From IMG/VR virus record IMGVR_UViG_3300042563_004412, positions 1 through 36,744 of that record: a stretch of 36,744 bases of DNA; one strand, 5' to 3'. The DNA comes from a virus. A program made the translations under genes and the position numbers. Shown here piece after piece: positions 1 through 30,672 of the stretch. The notes below the pieces were generated by a model that was given only the letters and a program-made list of their open reading frames with translations, did no database searches and was not told where the DNA came from. Position 1 is the stretch's first letter. Each line of letters starts with the position of its first letter.

Positions 1-274
1 CCGACATACCTTTGCTATAGTTTTTCTCTCGGAGTTTATGCATTTTACGCTCAAGAGAGCGTCCACTTGTATCAACTGCTACAATCCACCCGTCAATTCC
101 ACGAGAGAGTCTCCATGCAGAGCCTAGTCCATGTCGCCCACGGCCAAGGAAGATTCCAAGAGCTTCATATGGACTACGAGCATTGACGATATGTTCTTGT
201 CCAGCGACTCCCATGATTATATATTCCATATCATCGGAACGAGCTGATTGCGTAAAGGTAGATTTAGTATTCAT
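1..274 (-). CDS. Partial hypothetical protein, 3' end beyond left edge
   Basis: An open frame starts at the ATG at 272-274 and runs leftwards without a stop for 91 codons to the window edge, so only its N-terminal part is visible. It begins MNTKSTFTQSARSDDMEYII and has a short glycine/arginine-rich stretch (GIFLGRGRHGLGSAW) near the middle, followed by a basic segment (SLERKMHKLREKNYSK). I do not recognise a family. It is the last visible gene of the leftward row RlpA-like, glutaredoxin, HNH, separated from the HNH gene by 35 bases. The continuous frame and sensible composition make it very likely a real gene; its function is unknown. Confidence 0.6.
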   Translation of the reverse strand, partial: MNTKSTFTQSARSDDMEYIIMGVAGQEHIVNARSPYEALGIFLGRGRHGLGSAWRLSRGIDGWIVAVDTSGRSLERKMHKLREKNYSKGMS

Positions 275-309
275 ATATGTTTAAGTAGTGTATAGTATAT
301 ATTGATGTA

Positions 310-897
310 TCATTGGTGTGCATAGCTTTGTAGGAATGTACTCCATTCAGGACGCATCTCATGTTGACTCACAATGACATCAGGTATTTGAGGCGCACTT
401 ACTGGTTGGTTATTTACATTATAGTAAGGATAGATGCTGCTCTTACTAGAATTGCAACGGCGACATGCAAGTGTACGATTAGCGTGTTCATCGCCACCTC
501 CACGGCTGCGCGGCATGATATGGTCAATTGTGAGTTGGGCGATTGGATATTTCTTAAGGCAATATTGACACGTATTACCATAAATCTTAGCCAAGTCAGT
601 TACGAGTAACTTCTTTTTAGCGTGCCGGCGGTAAAATTTGTTTGTAACGGCAACAATTGTTGGAATAGGCCATACATCATGTTGCGAGCAGAGTACTGGT
701 GTATTCTCATCAAGAAAGGTATTACTATAAGTCATCCATTGCGTTAAGCTCGTATAGACATTGCCATGCTGATCCAATGCTGTAACTTTACCGTTAAGAA
801 CATACGTAAAAGCAACGCGTGCAGGTATTGTTGTGATGGGTTGCCATGCAAAGTTTAGCAGTAATGTCGTCTTTTCATCAGCTTTGACTCGTTTCAT
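310..897 (-). CDS. HNH endonuclease family protein
   Basis: A 195-aa protein with a C-terminal HNH nuclease domain. Paired cysteines C110/C113 (CQYC) and C145/C148 (CRRC) would bind a structural zinc, and between them are the D125-H126 pair in LTIDHIMPRSRGG and N140, the ββα-metal catalytic layout. The N-terminal half (LLLNFAWQPITTIPARVAFT) matches the lead-in seen in stand-alone bacterial and phage HNH proteins of the 'LNA.YEPL' type. HNH proteins nick or cut DNA; in T4-like phages they may be homing enzymes or act in packaging or host DNA degradation, and nothing here decides which. The start overlaps the glutaredoxin gene by 20 bases, so the two are probably translationally coupled. The family is sure; the role is open. 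Confidence 0.85.
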   Translation of the reverse strand: MKRVKADEKTTLLLNFAWQPITTIPARVAFTYVLNGKVTALDQHGNVYTSLTQWMTYSNTFLDENTPVLCSQHDVWPIPTIVAVTNKFYRRHAKKKLLVTDLAKIYGNTCQYCLKKYPIAQLTIDHIMPRSRGGGDEHANRTLACRRCNSSKSSIYPYYNVNNQPVSAPQIPDVIVSQHEMRPEWSTFLQSYAHQ

Positions 898-1117
898 GTT
901 TTTTAAAGTAATCTAAAATTTCAGCACTACTCTGTAGTTTTGTGCCATCAGGACATACTAGTGTAGGTACGCTGCGGATGCTGTTTCCAATAAAGTAAGC
1001 GGCATCACGACTTAGGTCTCGTGTGTCATAGTCTGCACCATATTGTTCTAATTGAGTTTTAAGAATTTTGCAAGGTCCACAAAATTCACTCGTTGCAAGT
1101 GTCGGTTTAACATTCAT
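878..1117 (-). CDS. Glutaredoxin/thioredoxin-like protein
   Basis: A 79-aa single-domain thioredoxin fold. It has the redox motif CGPC (C13, C16) at the start of the first helix and the cis-proline motif SVPTLV (P51) that packs against it. The length is that of a glutaredoxin, while the CGPC dipeptide is thioredoxin-like; such hybrids are common in T4-like phages, where they reduce ribonucleotide reductase. No ribonucleotide reductase lies in this window, so the partner is not visible. The ATG overlaps the stop of the RlpA-like gene upstream (ATGA, 1114-1117), and its 3' end overlaps the HNH gene, so it sits in one leftward operon. Confidence 0.9.
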   Translation of the reverse strand: MNVKPTLATSEFCGPCKILKTQLEQYGADYDTRDLSRDAAYFIGNSIRSVPTLVCPDGTKLQSSAEILDYFKKHETSQS

Positions 1118-1521
1118 TTGATTTTATATGTTTTTACTTCAATAACCCCAATCTCTAAACTATATATCCGTCGTGCAGCAGCTAAGCTTAAATCAATAAC
1201 GCGCTTGGGGTGTGGGCGTAATGGACGTAATGCTACACCGCTTGTGCTCGCCGCAAAAGGTCCACGATCGGTAATCTTTACATCAACGCTTTTACCATTT
1301 TTTGGATTTACAACACGTACCATACTGCCTAACGGATAATGGCAACTTGCTGCGGTAAGAGCATTGTCGCTTAGCGGTGTTCCGCTCGCGGTTGTTGTTC
1401 CACCGTTTGTTCTTACGCTATAGTATGATGCATATCCGGTTTTGCTTTGGACATTATAATGTTGGCCTAACGTGGAGCCTAATGTTAATAGGCATAATGC
1501 GATGAATATTAGTTTTTTCAT
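1114..1521 (-). CDS. Secreted RlpA-like double-psi beta-barrel protein
   Basis: A 135-aa protein with a clear N-terminal signal peptide (MKKLIFIALCLLTLGSTLG, no lipobox cysteine) followed by an RlpA-type double-psi beta-barrel: GYASYYS, TASGTPLSDNALTAAS, PLGSMVRVVNPKNGKSV, TDRGPF, RVIDLSLAAA. RlpA enzymes are lytic transglycosylases that cut naked peptidoglycan glycan strands. Aligning residue by residue to the bacterial family, the catalytic Asp is kept (D85) but the catalytic Glu of the TANGE motif is a threonine (T48). It may therefore bind rather than cut the wall. I chose the ATG at 1521 because it begins exactly at the signal peptide; the longer frame to 1557 needs a TTG start. Export implies action in the periplasm, perhaps in lysis. 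Confidence 0.85.
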   Translation of the reverse strand: MKKLIFIALCLLTLGSTLGQHYNVQSKTGYASYYSVRTNGGTTTASGTPLSDNALTAASCHYPLGSMVRVVNPKNGKSVDVKITDRGPFAASTSGVALRPLRPHPKRVIDLSLAAARRIYSLEIGVIEVKTYKIK

Positions 1522-1562
1522 AAGATGGGTTGTCGGCTCAGCCTTCAGATTTGACAAACTGT

Positions 1563-1623
1563 GTTTTGAATTTTATGCTTTGAGTTTTGAATTTTGAAAA
1601 CGGCAATTTGAGTTTTGAATTTT
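1563..1623. repeat. Three direct copies of gttttgaatttt
   Basis: The 12-mer gttttgaatttt occurs at 1563-1574, 1584-1595 and 1612-1623, just upstream of the RlpA-like gene. Copies two and three share a longer core (tttgagttttgaatttt). A short inverted repeat ggcaa/ttgcc (1602-1606, 1624-1628) encloses the third copy. They lie in the region that would be the 5' leader or upstream control region of the leftward operon. The function is unknown; protein-binding repeats or slippage products are both possible. Confidence 0.6.
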
Positions 1624-1633
1624 TTGCCAAATA

Positions 1634-1662
1634 TGTATAGGCAATTGCGGTGTCATTTTCAA
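1634..1662 (-). promoter_or_regulatory. Candidate sigma70-type promoter for the RlpA operon
   Basis: Read on the minus strand, TTGAAA and TATACA are separated by exactly 17 bases. This is a looser match than the TTTACA/TATAAT promoters elsewhere in the window, but it is in the only gap upstream of the RlpA, glutaredoxin and HNH genes. A small perfect inverted repeat (ctacat-agc-atgtag, 1672-1686) lies just upstream. Confidence 0.4.
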
Positions 1663-1747
1663 TATCGTATGCTACATAGCATGTAGTTCAGAATTAGTAT
1701 CACGAGGATACATGCGTCATTTCATCCGTCCGAGCCGACAAAAGTTT

Positions 1748-2203
1748 TTATTTTATAGTCGTCAACGCATTGTAGTTGTCAATAGTGTCTTGCAACTTTT
1801 CCGCGAGACTGCGATAAGTCAAAATTAAATTGTCAACATTTTTTTGATCAAGCGCATATTCAATTGTATATTCACTATCGACAATACGGTTAAGAGCATA
1901 GTCATGCACCTGAACAGGATAACCACTTACACCAGCCTGCAAGCTTTCAAGAAACTTAATTACGCCTTTAGTTTCGGCAAGATCTGCAAGTTCGGCTGAG
2001 ATGCTAGCATTTGCAACAGCGAGTTGTTGTTTGATCCTTACAAGATTTGCCTTTTCTTCAAGCAAACGATTAAAGAGAATCCCAACATCATCCACAGGTG
2101 GACGATTACTCTGATGCTTATTGCTCTTAACAATTTTCTTTTCAAGTTCGGCGATGCGACCTGCAATACGATTCTTTTCTTTAAGTCCTTGTGCGATGTT
2201 CAT
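1748..2203 (-). CDS. DIP1984/septicolysin-like coiled-coil protein
   Basis: A 151-aa, mostly helical protein. The N-terminus (IAQGLKEKNRIAGRIAELEK) and layout, two long helices joined by a short linker and a C-terminal region ending YNALTTIK, resemble the DIP1984 family (also called DUF6847, annotated septicolysin in some bacteria). The biochemical function of that family is not established, so none is claimed here. The gene is monocistronic in appearance: a perfect early promoter (2210-2238) lies only six bases upstream of its ATG, so its message is predicted to be leaderless, and a 226-base gap with a second candidate promoter follows it. Expression is therefore expected early in infection. 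The family assignment is from memory of the consensus and moderately sure. Confidence 0.6.
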   Translation of the reverse strand: MNIAQGLKEKNRIAGRIAELEKKIVKSNKHQSNRPPVDDVGILFNRLLEEKANLVRIKQQLAVANASISAELADLAETKGVIKFLESLQAGVSGYPVQVHDYALNRIVDSEYTIEYALDQKNVDNLILTYRSLAEKLQDTIDNYNALTTIK

Positions 2204-2209
2204 AATGGT

Positions 2210-2238
2210 ATTATATACTGTTTATTGTGTTTTGTAAA
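2210..2238 (-). promoter_or_regulatory. Early promoter TTTACA-17-TATAAT
   Basis: On the minus strand, TTTACA (2233-2238), a 17-base spacer and TATAAT (2210-2215) match the host sigma70 consensus at 11 of 12 positions. Only six bases (2204-2209) separate the -10 box from the ATG at 2203, so transcription should begin at or next to the start codon. Confidence 0.8.
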
Positions 2239-2240
2239 TA

Positions 2241-2483
2241 TTATTTTTCGTAAATTTCAAATGGAACGTTATCTTTGAAAATCTTGTTAAGATAACTCAT
2301 AAAGTCATCTGACGTATCAGCATTATAGACATAGTCAAACAAGAAGTCTTCGGCGCGCGTTGATAGTTGAGCTTCGCTACAAAGTGAGCTCTTTAGTTCT
2401 TCATAAAGCTCATCTTGTTGTCGCGCAAGACCGTGAATAACTTGTCGCGTTTCTGTGATATGTCTGTTATTATTTTCGTTCAT
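2241..2483 (-). CDS. Hypothetical phage protein
   Basis: An 80-aa acidic protein starting MNENNNRHITETRQVIHGLA and containing AEDFLFDYVYNADTSDDFMS. The frame is open for another 28 codons upstream, but that part lies inside the RNA ligase coding region, so the tandem ATGs at 2481-2486 are the natural starts; they overlap the 3' end of the ligase by about 14 bases. I know of no function. It resembles in length and composition the small acidic hypothetical proteins of T4-like cyanophages. The ligase, this gene and the genes upstream of it read as one leftward unit. Confidence 0.6.
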   Translation of the reverse strand: MNENNNRHITETRQVIHGLARQQDELYEELKSSLCSEAQLSTRAEDFLFDYVYNADTSDDFMSYLNKIFKDNVPFEIYEK

Positions 2484-3419
2484 CATATTGTAGGTTGATA
2501 ATTTTAAAACTGCCAGCTGCATGCTTAACAACAACACCTTCAAAAGTCTTGCCATCAATCTTATCAATCTCAGAGCTATATTTTTGAATGTGTGCCAAAG
2601 TTAACACGACTGCTTTCTCAAGCATTGGAACAACAGGAATATTTAGTTGCTCACAAACCTTCTCGTAGTAATGAGCGTCAGCTGGATCAGCATACTCAAG
2701 TTTATCCATATTAAAGACATTAAAGGCAGCGAAGTTAAGCGGAAGTTGACCGTGAGGATTTTTACCAAAGCCCTGAATACCATTGCCATAGAGCTCACCG
2801 CGCAAGCTTAGACTAACATCATGATGTTGACAATAAGCTAGCAGCTTGTTGACGATATCATACTTGGTGACTCCTTGAATATATTTGTTATCACATTCAG
2901 TTTTAAGACGCAAGCTACGACTAGTGACACCAGTCTCCCAAGAGCATCAATCTTGAGAGTAATATCACAAACTTCACCAAACGGCAAGTCAGAGATATTC
3001 TGCCAACGTTCTTCATCAGTCTTAGGCAAGCCACATGGCAAAAATCCAGCAGCGGATAAATCTTGTGGTGCAGGCGGCTCGTATTTAGACACGCCAATAA
3101 TCTCAGAGACTTCAGTGCCCGACACAATATCGCCATAAGCAACAAGAGCAGGCCAAGTGCTAATAGGCATTACAATACCAAAGCTCCATACACCACGTAG
3201 CTTACATGCCTTTACACGATTGCTGCGTGCTCTAAAGACTGCAGCCCATGGCTCATCAGGCAATACTGTATCAGGTTGAATAAGAATCACACGATGCCCA
3301 ACTGCAAATTTATCTTTTTGCACGATGCATTCATATCCTAAGACACGTACAATCTCAAGACTATCGGCATTATGGTGTGGCAGCACAGCTGTTACGGTTT
3401 CTACTGTTGCGAGTTTCAT
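2470..3419 (-). pseudogene. RNA ligase (DRB0094/Rnl5-like), frameshifted at catalytic KxDG
   Basis: Two overlapping frames together encode one RNA ligase. The first (from 3419) has the N-terminal OB-fold of the DRB0094/Rnl5 family (MKLATVETVTAVLPHHNADS, later KACKLRGVWSFGIVMP) and runs into the nucleotidyltransferase domain as far as DITLKID. The second carries the rest: SWETGVTSRSLRLKTECDNK, RGELYG, FEGVVVKH and SFKIINLQYDER, the ligase motifs III, IV and V. Adding one base next to position 2945 turns KID-A into KIDGSWETGVTSRS and gives a 951-base gene of 316 aa, the expected size. Motif I (KxDG) holds the lysine that takes AMP, so as written the enzyme is inactive. The family seals or repairs broken RNA. 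A real mutation and a sequence error are both possible. Its ATG overlaps the stop of the HExxH gene (3416-3419). Confidence 0.85.
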
Positions 3420-3880
3420 GCTTTTAATAATTTATATAGTTTAATTGCTTTAAGATTTGCTTCAATTTCCCATGGCTGCTTGCCATAAGCTGAGCTATGT
3501 ACATCATGCACTTGCTCATAAAGTTTACCTTTCCACATTACATTACGATCACCCATAATTAATTTATCGGTATGAAATTGTTCAACATGCACAAGCTCGT
3601 GCAAGAGAGTATGAAAAAAGCTACGACGACTCTGACGTGCATCAACATCGACAATATATTTTCCCCCTTTACATTTAGGTGGATAGGCAATGCCAGACGC
3701 TTTCATGCGATAAGGTATAGCTCGCACTCGCAGCTCAATTGTTTTTGGCAAATCTAGACGATCAATAATATGGCCAACTTTGTCATTAAAGAGCTCAACA
3801 TAATTGAGCGTAGATTTCTTCCATTGACTATAATTGCCGCTAATTAATGGCGACGTGATTTTTGTAATGATCTTTGACAT
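3416..3880 (-). CDS. Putative zinc metallopeptidase-like (HExxH) protein
   Basis: A 154-aa protein with a textbook zincin helix FFHTLLHELVHVEQF, giving the zinc-binding H94-E95-x-x-H98, and a possible third ligand in the C-terminal helix (PWEIEA, about residue 140). Small stand-alone HExxH proteins of this kind are found in T4-like phages and resemble SprT/ImmA-type zincins by layout, but I see no further domain that would give a substrate. The preceding beta-rich part (YIVDVDARQSRRSF) leads into the helix as in SprT-like folds. It is three bases downstream of the gene at 3884 and overlaps the RNA ligase start by four bases, so it is cotranscribed with both. Confidence 0.65.
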   Translation of the reverse strand: MSKIITKITSPLISGNYSQWKKSTLNYVELFNDKVGHIIDRLDLPKTIELRVRAIPYRMKASGIAYPPKCKGGKYIVDVDARQSRRSFFHTLLHELVHVEQFHTDKLIMGDRNVMWKGKLYEQVHDVHSSAYGKQPWEIEANLKAIKLYKLLKA

Positions 3881-10300: not shown

Positions 10301-11242
10301 CTATAGTGATTTTGCCGCAAATTCAATAGCTCTAGCTGCTTCAACATCCATAGCACGGTTTTTATACCATGAACCTGTCTCAGCATCTATTTCGCTGCAT
10401 AATGATGATATCTCGGATGCGGAGATAGGATAACCGCGGCGCATTGCATTGCCAGCAATACTTATCATGATTTGATACATCTTGGTGTACCATCCGCTAT
10501 TTTGAATCGTCTTATATTCGTTAATCATATTCATATTTACAAACGGACAATCATAATATGAATTCCAGCTGTATGAGCGATTGTTTAATGCGCCTAGGCG
10601 ACGCGCCTCAACCTTGCGCTTGAGGTCATCGGGCAGCTTGTCAAATAACCGTGAACCAACATGCGCTTGTATATACTCATGCTTAGTCATTAGCTCATAT
10701 GGATCTAATAGCGGAGAGTCTCGATGCGAAAAGATAAAGTGATTTGAATCTGGATAACGAGCTGGCACATAATACATACGTGACAGGTCTTTTGTTTGTG
10801 GATCAGATAGCGAATTGTATTGCTTGTTAAGAGCATACCAAAAGTGTCGGATCTTATCTGCTGGTACTTCACACTGGAGTGGAATCACAATACGAAACTT
10901 AGGATGTTCTAGTGTACTGCTTGCAGATGAATAACACACAAAGCGTGTATCTTTAAATACCTGCACCGCTTCTTCAAATGTGCCAGAGTAATCATCGACA
11001 TCAAGTGCAGCCCATCCGCCCCAGCATGTTACATTTGCATTCTTTCGTGTTTCGCCTTCAGCAAATAGCGCCGGTGAGATTAGTGGTGAACCTTTACGCC
11101 ATTCGCCTTTTTTAGGTTTATACCCAGGCTGTTTACTTAAGCTATATAGTAAATCTTCAAATGCATCAAAGGAGTCAAACTCCATGCGACGATGAGTCTT
11201 ATTGTCAAAGATATTATTAAAAATTGTAAAACTATATTTCAT
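10301..11242 (-). CDS. PrimPol/AEP-like primase domain protein
   Basis: A 313-aa protein resembling archaeo-eukaryotic primase (PrimPol/VirE-N type) domains. A catalytic-like Asp-x-Asp pair is present in WAALDVDDY (D81, D83), followed by VCYSSASSTLEHPKFRIVIP, whose histidine H113 sits where the family's 'sxH' nucleotide motif falls, and a third acidic residue in KDLSRMYYVPARYP (D152). This is the core AEP order. The C-terminal third is helical and has no helicase motifs. T4 primes with the DnaG-like gp61, so this would be an additional or alternative primer or repair polymerase. Its ATG overlaps the GIY-YIG stop (11239-11242). The assignment rests on motif order only. Confidence 0.55.
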   Translation of the reverse strand: MKYSFTIFNNIFDNKTHRRMEFDSFDAFEDLLYSLSKQPGYKPKKGEWRKGSPLISPALFAEGETRKNANVTCWGGWAALDVDDYSGTFEEAVQVFKDTRFVCYSSASSTLEHPKFRIVIPLQCEVPADKIRHFWYALNKQYNSLSDPQTKDLSRMYYVPARYPDSNHFIFSHRDSPLLDPYELMTKHEYIQAHVGSRLFDKLPDDLKRKVEARRLGALNNRSYSWNSYYDCPFVNMNMINEYKTIQNSGWYTKMYQIMISIAGNAMRRGYPISASEISSLCSEIDAETGSWYKNRAMDVEAARAIEFAAKSL

Positions 11243-11922
11243 GCAATTGTGTTTAATGTCCCATGATTACCAGCGTGAGACGGCGCAGTCGAATTTTTGT
11301 ATTCCGTTATGTCTAATGTAGTCCATTGGTGTTTATGTAGCATATGATTATATAAATTTCCGCCATCTAAAATTTTATCGCATTCAGCACATTTCCATTT
11401 TGGGACATATTTTTTTGGTTTTCTCATTTTATTTTTACTTTCTTCTGAATGTTTTTTACCAAAAAAACCGTTATCTTCTCCACAGCTTTTTTTATGTCCT
11501 TTAATGAAAGGAGTTTGACCAGCATCGCAGTTTATTTTTTGTTTAGCTGAAAGTAACTTCTTTGTTTCATCTGAATGTGTTTTTCCAAAAAATGGATGTT
11601 CAGCACCGCATACACTTCTGCCAAACCAACCATTAGGACATGCTAATGACATATTCATATAACGATTGGATTTTACGACGTCATATTTTTTATGTAGGTA
11701 TAATTCATTCATGATTGCTTCTTTTCGAGTTTCGTATATTTTCAATATACGTGTTTTAAACAAATGTTTATTTTCTAATTGTTCTGCTTTAAAAATATCT
11801 TTATATTTTTTTGACTTTATTGATCCGTTATAACCAAAAGAAATTTTTTCAATTGAAGTAGATCCAATATAACGACGTGGTAATTTAGTTCCAAAGTAAA
11901 TTGTTAAGTAAGTGCAATACAT
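11239..11922 (-). CDS. GIY-YIG homing endonuclease with NUMOD3 repeats
   Basis: A 227-aa homing endonuclease. The N-terminal nuclease has a variant GIY-YIG signature, YLT (5-7) and YIGSTS (18-23), followed by the expected arginine/glutamate helix (ETRKEAIMNELYLHKKY). Two NUMOD3 DNA-binding repeats follow (EHPFFGKTHSDETKKLL and DNGFFGKKHSEESKNKM), then a Cys-rich finger (CAECDKI…HMLHKH). The last residues, TAPSHAGNHGTLN, copy the C-terminus of the neighbouring MazG-like protein; the DNA is a 38-base direct repeat flanking the element. A late promoter (11932-11939) stands nine bases before the ATG. T4 controls several of its homing endonucleases by late promoters in the same way. It is a mobile gene inserted between mazG-like and the primase-like gene. 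Confidence 0.88.
   Translation of the reverse strand: MYCTYLTIYFGTKLPRRYIGSTSIEKISFGYNGSIKSKKYKDIFKAEQLENKHLFKTRILKIYETRKEAIMNELYLHKKYDVVKSNRYMNMSLACPNGWFGRSVCGAEHPFFGKTHSDETKKLLSAKQKINCDAGQTPFIKGHKKSCGEDNGFFGKKHSEESKNKMRKPKKYVPKWKCAECDKILDGGNLYNHMLHKHQWTTLDITEYKNSTAPSHAGNHGTLNTIA
11253..11290. repeat. 38-bp direct repeat, copy A (end of GIY-YIG gene)
   Basis: 32 of 38 bases match 11983-12020. It encodes TAPSHAGNHGTLN at the end of the GIY-YIG protein; the other copy encodes TAPSHVGNYGTLT at the end of the MazG-like protein. The two copies bracket the homing endonuclease gene and its promoter. Confidence 0.85.
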
Positions 11923-28383: not shown

Positions 28384-28791
28384 CTATAACTTCCAACGAT
28401 TAATCAATTTACTGCATGATGATTGTGATAACGGTTTATCAATTGCAAGAGAGGGATCTAAAGGATCAACGAGATCCAATAAGTTTAACAAACGATCAGT
28501 TATTAAAGCCTCAATATACTTTGATCGTACGTCATCAGTTGCAGCTGTAAGTGTTTCTACTGATCGTTTATAGATCGTACATTCCTCATTATCATTATTA
28601 ACTACAAACGGCGTATATATTTGCCGATACCCGTTAGGGGCAACAAATAGCTGTTGTATTTCAAACGGGCAACGTAAAGTAATTGATGTATCGTCTTCCT
28701 TATAGGATTCTCCTATAAGTTTTCGCCCGCTGTTTAAACCATATATGGCAATCTTAGAATTTTGTATAGTATCAAATATTTTTTCAATCAT
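28384..28791 (-). CDS. LSm/Hfq-like small protein (tentative)
   Basis: A 135-aa protein starting MIEKIFDTIQNSKIAIYGLN. An Sm-like five-strand pattern can be read in IAIYGLNSGRKLIGESYKED, TSITLRCPFEIQQLF and YTPFVVNNDNEECTIYKRSV, followed by a helical tail (RSKYIEALITDRLLNLL). T4-like cyanophages carry a comparable unnamed protein near uvsW and gp55. If correct it would bind RNA, but no RNA-binding residues can be proven here. I chose the ATG at 28791, which overlaps the stop of the uvsW 3' piece (ATGA), over the TTG two codons upstream. Confidence 0.5.
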   Translation of the reverse strand: MIEKIFDTIQNSKIAIYGLNSGRKLIGESYKEDDTSITLRCPFEIQQLFVAPNGYRQIYTPFVVNNDNEECTIYKRSVETLTAATDDVRSKYIEALITDRLLNLLDLVDPLDPSLAIDKPLSQSSCSKLINRWKL

Positions 28792-29111
28792 TTGCAAGGT
28801 ATCTCGTAGATTTTATAACTAAAACGTTCCTTTTCGTAAATCTTAATACGCTCTATAGCATGTACCATCGTATAATTCTTTTTCTTCTTCCATGCGAAAT
28901 TATCTGAAATATCATATACGGTTGTCACACTACCATTATCGGATTTACGCAAGCCACGTCCAATACTCTGCAGGACTCGTATCTGACTCTTAGTAGGTGC
29001 GGCAAAAATAATTTGATGCAAGTTCTTAATATTAATTCCTGTCGAAAAACAATTAGAACTCGCCACAATGATAACACCACTTTCCCCAACATTAACTTCA
29101 TCTGGTTTCAT
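28788..29111 (-). CDS. uvsW: UvsW helicase, C-terminal piece (motifs V and VI)
   Basis: A 107-aa frame that encodes the missing end of UvsW: VIIVASSNCFSTGINIKNLH (motif V), QIIFAAPTKSQIRVLQSIGR with GRGLRK (motif VI, including the arginine finger) and the UvsW tail VYDISDNFAWKKKKNYTMVH. It is separated from the N-terminal piece by a stop codon, an insert of some 350 bases and a change of frame. An ATG (29109-29111) with AAGGAAAG about 12 bases before it could allow separate translation. The ATPase cannot work without these motifs, so the two pieces must either join or associate, or the helicase is lost. Confidence 0.8.
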   Translation of the reverse strand: MKPDEVNVGESGVIIVASSNCFSTGINIKNLHQIIFAAPTKSQIRVLQSIGRGLRKSDNGSVTTVYDISDNFAWKKKKNYTMVHAIERIKIYEKERFSYKIYEIPCK

Positions 29112-29316
29112 TTTGCGTTTTTCTTTCCTTTGCTAATTTTCTATTTGCTAACATCATTGCTTTCCATTCAGGGTCTGCCCATTTTTCTTTAAGTGAAGTT
29201 GAATTTGACCCACGTTTGCGGTTTTTCATTTTATCTCTAAAATTAGGATCTGCCCATTTTTCTTTAATAGCAATACCTGACTGCACTCGTTTATCTATAT
29301 CGTTATTAACCTCTAA
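29098..29316 (-). mobile_element. Remnant of a homing-endonuclease-type insertion in uvsW
   Basis: After the stop at 29317-29319 the same frame continues: LEVNNDIDKRVQSG, then two copies of a basic helix motif, IKEKWADPNFRDKMKNRK and LKEKWADPEWKAMMLANRK, ending at a stop at 29098. Repeats of the form KWADPxxRxxM are typical of the DNA-binding tails of HNH and GIY-YIG homing endonucleases (NUMOD-like). No nuclease domain is left. Together with the 47-residue foreign tail on the uvsW N-terminal piece, this is the residue of a mobile insertion of which the middle has been lost. Confidence 0.6.
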
Positions 29317-30672
29317 TTACACCCAGGCAGATATCCACTTATCACATACATCATCGTCAATAGTAATATCTTTAGCATATTTTGTAGTTCCATCAGATAG
29401 GTTTACACTACTATCATTATTAACTTTAATCTTCTTTTTGCCAAATCTTAAAACAGTTTGATTGGTATGTTTATCAGTAATTTCACGTATGCTTTCGCGA
29501 TCCGTTGCATTTACTTCACCGCTAACATAAAATACTTTGCGGCCTGCGTCTGCAAGTTCCGTTATGGCTGCATGTAATGGTTTACCATGTCGCTCAACAA
29601 GATTAAAGAGCACCAATGTATTTCCTGTTTGACTTACCGCAAGTTTGGAGATAAAACGATTACGCGGTTCATGCGAAACAATTGCATCAATCTCGCCTTT
29701 ATAGTCAAGCTTTGAAACAATCTTTTTAAGTTCATCACTATGATTAAGTACAATACACTGTATCTTTAATTCCGCAAGTGTATCACTATCCATAAGTTCA
29801 CGTGTAGTAATAACACGATGAACTGGACCAAAGTTACCAACAAGAACACGCTCATTGCACAAGCTGCCGTCTAGTGTGCCTGTTGTACCTATACGATAGC
29901 CTGCATTAACACAAGCGGCCATAATACTATTCAAGCTCTTTGCTTTAAATAAATGTGCTTCATCTCCAAGAACCATACCATAACGACGAAACCAAGAGCT
30001 ATCGCATTTTATTGCGCTCTGCCATGTGGTAATTACAACACGCGCTTCAAAGGAATTCTTTTCTTTACCACTATAGATTTTATGTATCTCATGTTCAGTA
30101 CTAAAGTCTTCATCTGCACTGGAATAGTCCGCAAAGTCTTTAGTCATCTGTTCAACAAGACTTGTGGTAGGTACAACAATAAGTACACTATCATCATGAT
30201 TTTCAAGATACCAACGTACCATAAGGTAAATAATAAGACTCTTACCAGATCCTGTTGGCGAAATGATTAGGCTGCGTCCTTCAGCACAGGCATGCGAGTA
30301 TGCATCCAACTGATAGCTGCGCGGCTCGATAACATTTGAGCCGTTCATAATTTTTAAGCTTTTTGCATAAGCTTGCAGCTCATCATGTGATGGTACAATA
30401 CGAGATACTATATCGCCGTCTAACTTTACTTCATAACCTCGCTTACCTGCAAAGGATATAACTTCAAATAATAATCCATAAGGCAACTTACCAGTGCGCC
30501 CATCCATCAAGCGGATTTTTCCATCCCACATTTTATTGCGATAAGATGGAATAAATTTATATCCATCTGCATAAAATGTAAAATGTTCATAAAGCTCCAT
30601 AAGAGCACCACCATCAGTTGAGGTAACTCTTAGGTATGCTTCATTAAGTTTATGTATCTCTAGCGTTGGCAT
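29317..30672 (-). CDS. uvsW: UvsW helicase, N-terminal piece with foreign tail
   Basis: A 451-aa frame. Residues 1 to about 404 are UvsW, the T4 recombination RNA-DNA/branch-migration helicase: an N-terminal DNA-binding region, Walker A LIISPTGSGKSLII (K144), IVVPTTSLVEQM, VVITTWQSA, DEAH box VLGDEAHLF (237-240), RIGTTGTLDG and the start of domain 2, VFYVSGEVNATDRESIREIT. From about residue 405 it leaves the family and ends in 47 foreign residues (SSVNLSDGTTKYAKDITIDD, then CDKWISAWV stop) that resemble the N-terminal block of Hint/intein domains but lack the nucleophile. Motifs V and VI are in a separate frame (28788-29111). It follows uvsY after three bases. Confidence 0.85.
   Translation of the reverse strand: MPTLEIHKLNEAYLRVTSTDGGALMELYEHFTFYADGYKFIPSYRNKMWDGKIRLMDGRTGKLPYGLLFEVISFAGKRGYEVKLDGDIVSRIVPSHDELQAYAKSLKIMNGSNVIEPRSYQLDAYSHACAEGRSLIISPTGSGKSLIIYLMVRWYLENHDDSVLIVVPTTSLVEQMTKDFADYSSADEDFSTEHEIHKIYSGKEKNSFEARVVITTWQSAIKCDSSWFRRYGMVLGDEAHLFKAKSLNSIMAACVNAGYRIGTTGTLDGSLCNERVLVGNFGPVHRVITTRELMDSDTLAELKIQCIVLNHSDELKKIVSKLDYKGEIDAIVSHEPRNRFISKLAVSQTGNTLVLFNLVERHGKPLHAAITELADAGRKVFYVSGEVNATDRESIREITDKHTNQTVLRFGKKKIKVNNDSSVNLSDGTTKYAKDITIDDDVCDKWISAWV

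Follow-up and report, generated by a model that had tools for sequence, protein, structure and literature searches.

How can a T4-like marine phage still have a UvsW helicase when the uvsW gene is cut in two immediately before motif V? The question is raised by a 36.7-kb IMG/VR virus record (IMGVR_UViG_3300042563_004412), here called the window, meaning the whole stretch of 36,744 nt that was analyzed, in which replication and head genes are T4-like. Our preferred answer, to which we give a probability of roughly 0.7, is that uvsW holds a recently acquired homing cassette with a crippled endonuclease, and that UvsW would work in two pieces held non-covalently by the remnant of a split intein that no longer splices. 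The features of the locus are the following.

29317-30672, minus strand: open reading frame (ORF) of the uvsW N-part, 451 aa; UvsW-like to ...REITDKHTN (residue ~404), then 47 extra residues, then TAA.
29461-30672, minus strand: helicase body of the N-half, residues 1-404, with the UvsW N-domain, Walker A SPTGSGKS and the DEAH box.
29317-29460, minus strand: C-terminal tail of the N-half with its stop; 47 residues, a predicted Hint block-B-like mini-domain of four strands and a C-terminal helix.
29308-29314, minus strand: deletion junction AGAGGTT; relative to contig L006, 681 bp are gone between two copies of this 7-mer.
29098-29307, minus strand: remnant of an HNH homing endonuclease gene, its last ~70 codons with two KWADPxxRxxM repeats, lacking the HNH part and a proper start.
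29049-29476, minus strand: whole transferred cassette, ~430 bp, comprising the tail, the endonuclease remnant, the new start and the recoded strand before motif V; borders blurred by co-conversion.
28788-29111, minus strand: uvsW C-half, 107 aa in another frame, ATG at 29111; begins MKPDEVNVGES (29079-29111) and contains VIIVASSNCFSTGI (motif V) and QSIGRGLR (motif VI).

The initial annotation, made from the letters alone, had UvsW ending at about residue 404 (REITDKHTN) with 47 foreign in-frame residues and a stop behind it, and resuming in another frame at 29111 with motifs V and VI. The reading frames bear this out, with FSTGI as the motif V core and QSIGRGLR as motif VI; the two KWADPxxRxxM repeats past the TAA are also there, in 72 further in-frame codons that end at a stop, and not in 73 as had been counted. 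Pfam recognized UvsW_N and ResIII/DEAD in the N-part and, slightly below cut-off, Helicase_C in the C-part. The split thus separates an N-half with domain 1 and part of domain 2 from a C-half with the remaining domain 2, including motifs V and VI. The 47-residue tail has no counterpart in intact UvsW. Since the same tail and the same MKP restart were found in tens of split uvsW loci, the split is a real feature of the gene and not due to chance.

Alignment with intact UvsW, which the initial annotation had proposed for fixing the borders of the insert, was possible with the closest relative, a near-identical contig (L002) in which uvsW is unbroken (REITEKENDAIIVASVGTFSTGI). Compared in 60-bp blocks, the flanks on both sides show 90–100% DNA identity (91–100% per block over the N-half helicase body), and the cassette is absent from L002. 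Divergence starts near 29476 and stops near 29049. The cassette stands in place of ~36 bp of the intact gene, so that the strand before motif V and the first residues of motif V are recoded by it. At the insertion site, uvsW is also unbroken in 25 further distinct intact sequences from related phages. The comparison with L006 gives the opposite pattern: the cassette is 98–100% identical, whereas the flanks reach only about 50–85%, with a short gradient beside the insert. Judged from these alignments, the pattern is that of recent homing with co-conversion. Because of its near-identity to the L006 cassette despite such different flanks, the cassette must have moved recently, and its point of entry into uvsW is fixed: it lies past the helix that follows motif IV and ahead of the strand that runs into motif V.

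The enzyme that such a transfer calls for is found in relatives. In L006, L090 and L091, a complete HNH endonuclease gene of 291 aa lies between the uvsW halves, and the PHROG match of the L006-type protein is a homing/HNH endonuclease. The remnant in the window is 98–100% identical to the 3′ end of this gene. The 681 bp missing between the AGAGGTT repeats correspond to the 5′ two thirds of the endonuclease gene, with its start codon and the HNH catalytic part (a HHILP-type segment present in L006), and do not affect helicase sequence. The endonuclease gene was then crippled, by a deletion between short direct repeats, as the initial annotation had supposed when it proposed that a homing-endonuclease insertion had lost an internal piece. 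Its word "degenerate" fits the endonuclease and does not fit the tail, which is conserved and under purifying selection.

Split uvsW genes with this tail and MKP start recur in Vibrio and Dickeya phages and in many uncultured ones, and the endonuclease that goes with them is of one of two types or missing. In L003-L005, L092-L096 and L102, the gene between the halves is an unrelated one of the NUMOD3 (GIY-YIG-like) kind, and the tail and MKP start are the same. No endonuclease lies between the halves in L105-L108, L019 and the Vibrio phages K471 and K469, where both parts are kept; in both Vibrio phages, the helicase genes share an ATGA overlap. The tail is retained in every arrangement and is conserved across 17 aligned lineages, with F, L, K, A, T, D, D and W invariant, and the C-half almost always starts MKP[TDNS]x[VI], the exceptions among tail-bearing lineages being LKP (L185 and kin) and MAKV (L178). 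DNA-pattern searches aimed at the C-half only yielded more loci, and in all those with enough upstream sequence the tail hidden Markov model (HMM) then found the tail upstream (E 3e-6 or lower). Because the tail was met upstream of C-halves that had been found independently of it, tail and MKP start travel as a pair. As a side observation, L116 (3685-4474; also L117) has between its uvsW halves, instead of an endonuclease, a repetitive 262-aa ORF (MSKQWGKIDRANSS...), perhaps structural, followed by a terminator-like hairpin.

The ratio of nonsynonymous to synonymous differences per site (pN/pS) of the tail is 0.15–0.27 in informative pairs: 0.15 for the window against L092, and 0.27 for K471 against K469, a pair with saturated synonymous divergence (pS 0.83) and no endonuclease. 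For the C-fragment of the window it is 0.13–0.20 against L090 and L092, and 0.07–0.20 over C-halves of the window-type form. These values indicate purifying selection on the tail and the MKP start, whether the accompanying enzyme is HNH, GIY-YIG/NUMOD3 or missing. Since they persist whatever the endonuclease, these parts appear to be what the phage needs to keep.

The initial annotation had likened the tail to a Hint N-block without its Cys/Ser. The AlphaFold 2 (AF2) model of the tail alone has four strands and a C-terminal helix, with a predicted local distance difference test score of 85. The best Foldseek match in the PDB is the VidaL intein (probability 0.84, root-mean-square deviation (rmsd) 1.0 over 38 columns, E 2.0), the 13 entries that VIA-align lists all belong to Hint domains (Z 4.8–2.5), and proteins with inteins are also common among the top matches in a viral structure library. 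Weak matches of the tail to Staphylococcus SSB (E 1–10) were judged to be chance. At the sequence level, the tail HMM matched the N-intein of L176 unprompted; the split N-inteins of L176 and L119 had been come upon by accident. In hhalign, the tail profile matched them with 94.5% probability (E 8e-8; its score was 39.6, and no more than 14.2 was reached in 100 column shuffles), and the profile search of residues 405-451 against Hint and intein families that the initial annotation had suggested was positive only with these two. The alignment covers their last third, block B, and block A with Cys1 is missing, so that the Hint likeness and the absent Cys1 stand, with the block reassigned from A to B. 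The tail therefore probably, with moderate confidence, goes back to a split N-intein and represents its block-B end; ~47 + 11 residues would remain of the ~130 in a split intein. The MKPxKI start of the C-half could derive from the first strand of a C-intein; the genuine C-inteins found start MKIKKI or MKLVKR, which is similar to this short segment.

The uvsW genes that supplied these N-inteins deserve description. L176 (8465-11246) carries a canonical split intein at motif II (VVVDE/CLHPDS...TGNHKVKLSNG...ENDDILNFN and stop, a free-standing endonuclease, then MKIKKINKI...NVSN/CHKAK), and L119 (about 1-3641) has one at motif II too (DE/C), likewise with a free-standing endonuclease. L119 shows a further intein-like insert near motif I (SATA/CHAKGD..., with LYLGDG). 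The uvsW genes of L176 and L119 are thus interrupted two or three times.

These data give the following sequence of events. A homing cassette entered uvsW and broke it, giving the N-half its 47-residue tail and the C-half its MKPxxV start. The endonuclease then lost most of its gene, and tail and MKP start were kept, apparently because the phage needs them. The intein remnant, from which Cys1, TxxH and the terminal Asn are gone, would be unable to splice; tail and MKP segment would instead dock non-covalently, in the manner of the two parts of a split intein, and so keep the helicase halves joined in a single working UvsW. For L102, a chain read through the stops (N-half, tail, out-of-frame linker, C-half) was modeled by AF2: body and tail are confident, the linker is of low confidence, and a strand is predicted beside the MKP segment. 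This model matches T4 UvsW (2OCA) with Z 30.7 over residues 1-811, spanning both halves, at an rmsd of 18.3 with the domains placed differently, and yeast Ssl2 (Ssl2/XPB) with an rmsd of 3.0 over residues 117-809. Since it superposes on both, the halves could form one two-domain helicase.

Splicing was the other way in which the gene might be rescued, and the initial annotation had raised it both for RNA and for protein. Repair by group I intron RNA splicing, or by trans-splicing through a non-canonical split intein, would agree with the Hint-like tail, with the genuine split inteins elsewhere in uvsW (L176, L119) and with the paper on Dickeya phage LIMEstone1, whose authors list I-LimI in uvsW as a putative intron (PMC3296691). 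Rfam cmscan of the window and its relatives, in gathering and E-value modes, found no group I intron core, only sub-threshold chance matches; moreover, the tail is conserved as protein, and joining the flanks would lose the AIIVAS strand, whose only coding sequence follows the MKP start. Concerning protein splicing, no Cys, Ser or Thr is conserved at the tail border in the 16–17 lineages, Thr and His of the block-B TxxH are replaced in all 16 aligned tails (Thr by N/S/Q/G/D/V/P/R, His by S/C/D/E/N/V/L/T), and the terminal Asn (as HN) with a following Cys, Ser or Thr is absent from all 19 C-half starts examined. With Cys1, TxxH and terminal Asn missing, protein splicing of UvsW in the window is very unlikely on sequence grounds, neither splicing option is supported, and repair by splicing as a whole is highly improbable. 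I-LimI itself (NC_019925.1, L084, 3652-4551) is probably wrongly labeled as intron-borne, given that no intron is detectable there and that tail and MKP start are conserved. An assembly artefact, with a chimera or a collapsed endonuclease gene in a lone metagenomic contig, where mis-assembly could give just such a deletion between direct repeats, is equally hard to credit: the split is present in many independent contigs and in cultured phages, and what sets the window apart is the 681-bp deletion alone.

Two readings differ from ours in what becomes of the two ORFs. The tails might be ballast, tolerated or capping an exposed strand edge, with the split RecA-like domain 2 re-associating by its own core. 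In the read-through model, domain 2 does form over the break and the C-half sits where it does natively, and the split T4 gp39/gp60 and phage-25 43A/43B enzymes are functional (PMC2988022). Against it, the tail is conserved over very distant phages, more so than the helicase body (63% vs. under 46% between the window lineage and Vibrio phage K471), and it is kept even without an endonuclease and upstream of every pattern-search C-half with enough upstream DNA, which makes ballast unlikely. That uvsW is dead in this phage, with endonuclease and helicase both decaying and UvsW dispensable or replaced, would fit the truncated endonuclease gene and a motif V changed to SNCFSTG, seen in a single contig. 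We consider it quite unlikely: both ORFs are open, Walker A, DEAH, the motif V core and motif VI are intact, the C-half differs from L090 and L092 mostly at synonymous sites, and cultured phages maintain this arrangement as well, namely LIMEstone and Vibrio phage 144E46.1, the latter split in the same way as K471. The two-polypeptide option of the initial annotation is thus the best supported, by the conserved tail and C-half start, the purifying selection on both, and their existence without an endonuclease.

Several points weigh against a splicing-dead intein remnant that holds two working halves. A first profile comparison, of the tail with eleven gp41-1-like phage inteins, gave a probability of 2% and a score within the shuffles; Pfam with single tails and a PDB profile search returned nothing relevant, nor did PHROGs with single tails. 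The sequence homology to inteins leans mainly on the two N-inteins of L176 and L119, and the Foldseek E-value is weak. Tail pN/pS rises to 0.55–0.72 in some distant, saturated pairs, where 47 codons make the ratio noisy. Motif V reads ASSNCFSTG in the window vs. GTFSTG in 22–23 of the 26 distinct intact sequences, which may leave the helicase partly impaired. Part of the AF2 chain is a linker read out of frame, and the model may do no more than reproduce a remembered UvsW fold; the assembly of the halves and the part of the tail in it are what we infer.

The C-half is continuous in the window, with no in-phase stop or non-coding gap, whereas in many tail-bearing relatives it is broken inside motif V: AIIVASY is followed by a stop-initial gap of 4, 6, 7, 11 or about 14 nt and then by FSTG, in another frame or behind the stop (L097, L098, L104, L109, L116, L119, L122, L124, L166, L170-L172 and L176-L183). 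With the gap taken out, the 4-, 6- and 7-nt classes regain an exact motif V. A strong hairpin is predicted over the AIIVAS codons of the stop-gap classes (z −2.4 to −8, vs. about 0 in form A), four lineages keep 10/10 base pairs with three of them compensated, and an AAGGAGG-like sequence lies just upstream in most loci. Matching UCG/UCG codons occur only in L098 and L104, with no match in the other gap-bearing relatives. Fragments after the gap have a pN/pS of 0.07–0.44, as under purifying selection. Since exact DNA patterns for three gap types, among 2.9 million contigs, recur in split uvsW (7/9, 8/9 and 15/15 contigs matched), the gaps are not sequencing errors. The stop-gap relatives are candidates for programmed bypass of the T4 gene-60 kind. 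In 15 contigs (L118, L169, L184-L196), one extra base follows GT-TTT of motif V (GGN ACN TTT Y TCN ACN GG), mostly with a Shine–Dalgarno-like sequence upstream, and a +1 frameshift on the Phe codon is the candidate there.

Two other explanations of the gaps were considered. Stop-codon reassignment was rejected, as all three stops end long ORFs in most of these loci and gaps of 4 and 7 nt shift the frame anyway. Separate initiation after the gap is unlikely in L109, L122, L124, L116 and L166, which have no in-frame ATG, GTG or TTG before motif V; in L098, which has GTG, and elsewhere, where there is ATT, it may still occur. A wider scenario, which we hold tentatively and at somewhat less than even odds, is that a uvsW split intein lost splicing and became a non-covalent staple moving with changing endonucleases. 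Gapped C-halves would then need bypass or frameshifting, perhaps since the gap blocks their own endonuclease, as proposed for T4 gene 60, and the window would be a stage without gap and without working endonuclease.

Elsewhere in the window, a homing endonuclease gene (11239-11922; phrog_10820/phrog_314) adjoins a primase-like gene (10301-11242), and another HNH endonuclease gene lies near the left end (310-897). The endonuclease of L003-L005 also matches phrog_314.

If the preferred reading is right, this would be a natural escape from gene breakage by a selfish element without RNA or protein splicing, in which what is left of a ruined split intein serves as glue, and it would explain where assembly tails like the ones on Aeh1 NrdA could come from in evolution. 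Many natural controls would be at hand, in which tails are kept while the endonuclease is intact, swapped, crippled or absent. Next to T4 gene 60, termed apparently unique in a 2010 review (PMC3014915), the relatives would also place another family of recoding candidates linked to endonucleases, with far more members.

Among known systems, I-LimI of LIMEstone1 is the same case in gene, site, tail, MKP start and HNH-type endonuclease, differing in its annotation as intron-borne. Dassa et al. reportedly described, in 2009, fractured genes in which split inteins go with a free-standing endonuclease. Such genes share with the UvsW locus the order N-half with N-intein, endonuclease, C-intein with C-half, and the UvsW tail appears homologous to their N-intein block B, but the UvsW cassette is without Cys1/block A, TxxH, the C-terminal Asn and the +1 nucleophile. 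T4 gene 39/mobA/gene 60 is an enzyme gene split by a homing endonuclease, with a 50-nt translational bypass in which a stem-loop accompanies the stop and the coding gap (PMC5009743, PMC3014915). Relatives of the window are built likewise: their new downstream gene opens with a short stretch, which is followed by an in-phase stop and, next to a stem-loop, by a break in the coding sequence; their gap differs in its variable length of 1–14 nt and its place at motif V, and the window has none. The closest parallel in outcome is nrdA-a/mobE/nrdA-b of Aeromonas phage Aeh1, where the split alpha subunit of NrdA forms an active complex as two polypeptides (PMC3267527), reported as fully active (PMC2988022). 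There too, an enzyme gene of a T4-like phage is broken by an HNH homing endonuclease, and both halves have additional residues where they part. The Aeh1 tails are said to be essential (Crona et al. 2011) and, to our knowledge, have not been called Hint-derived. The gene is a different one, and by eye the Aeh1 tails have no evident likeness to the UvsW tail, which recurs in distant phage families and persists after its endonuclease is lost or exchanged.
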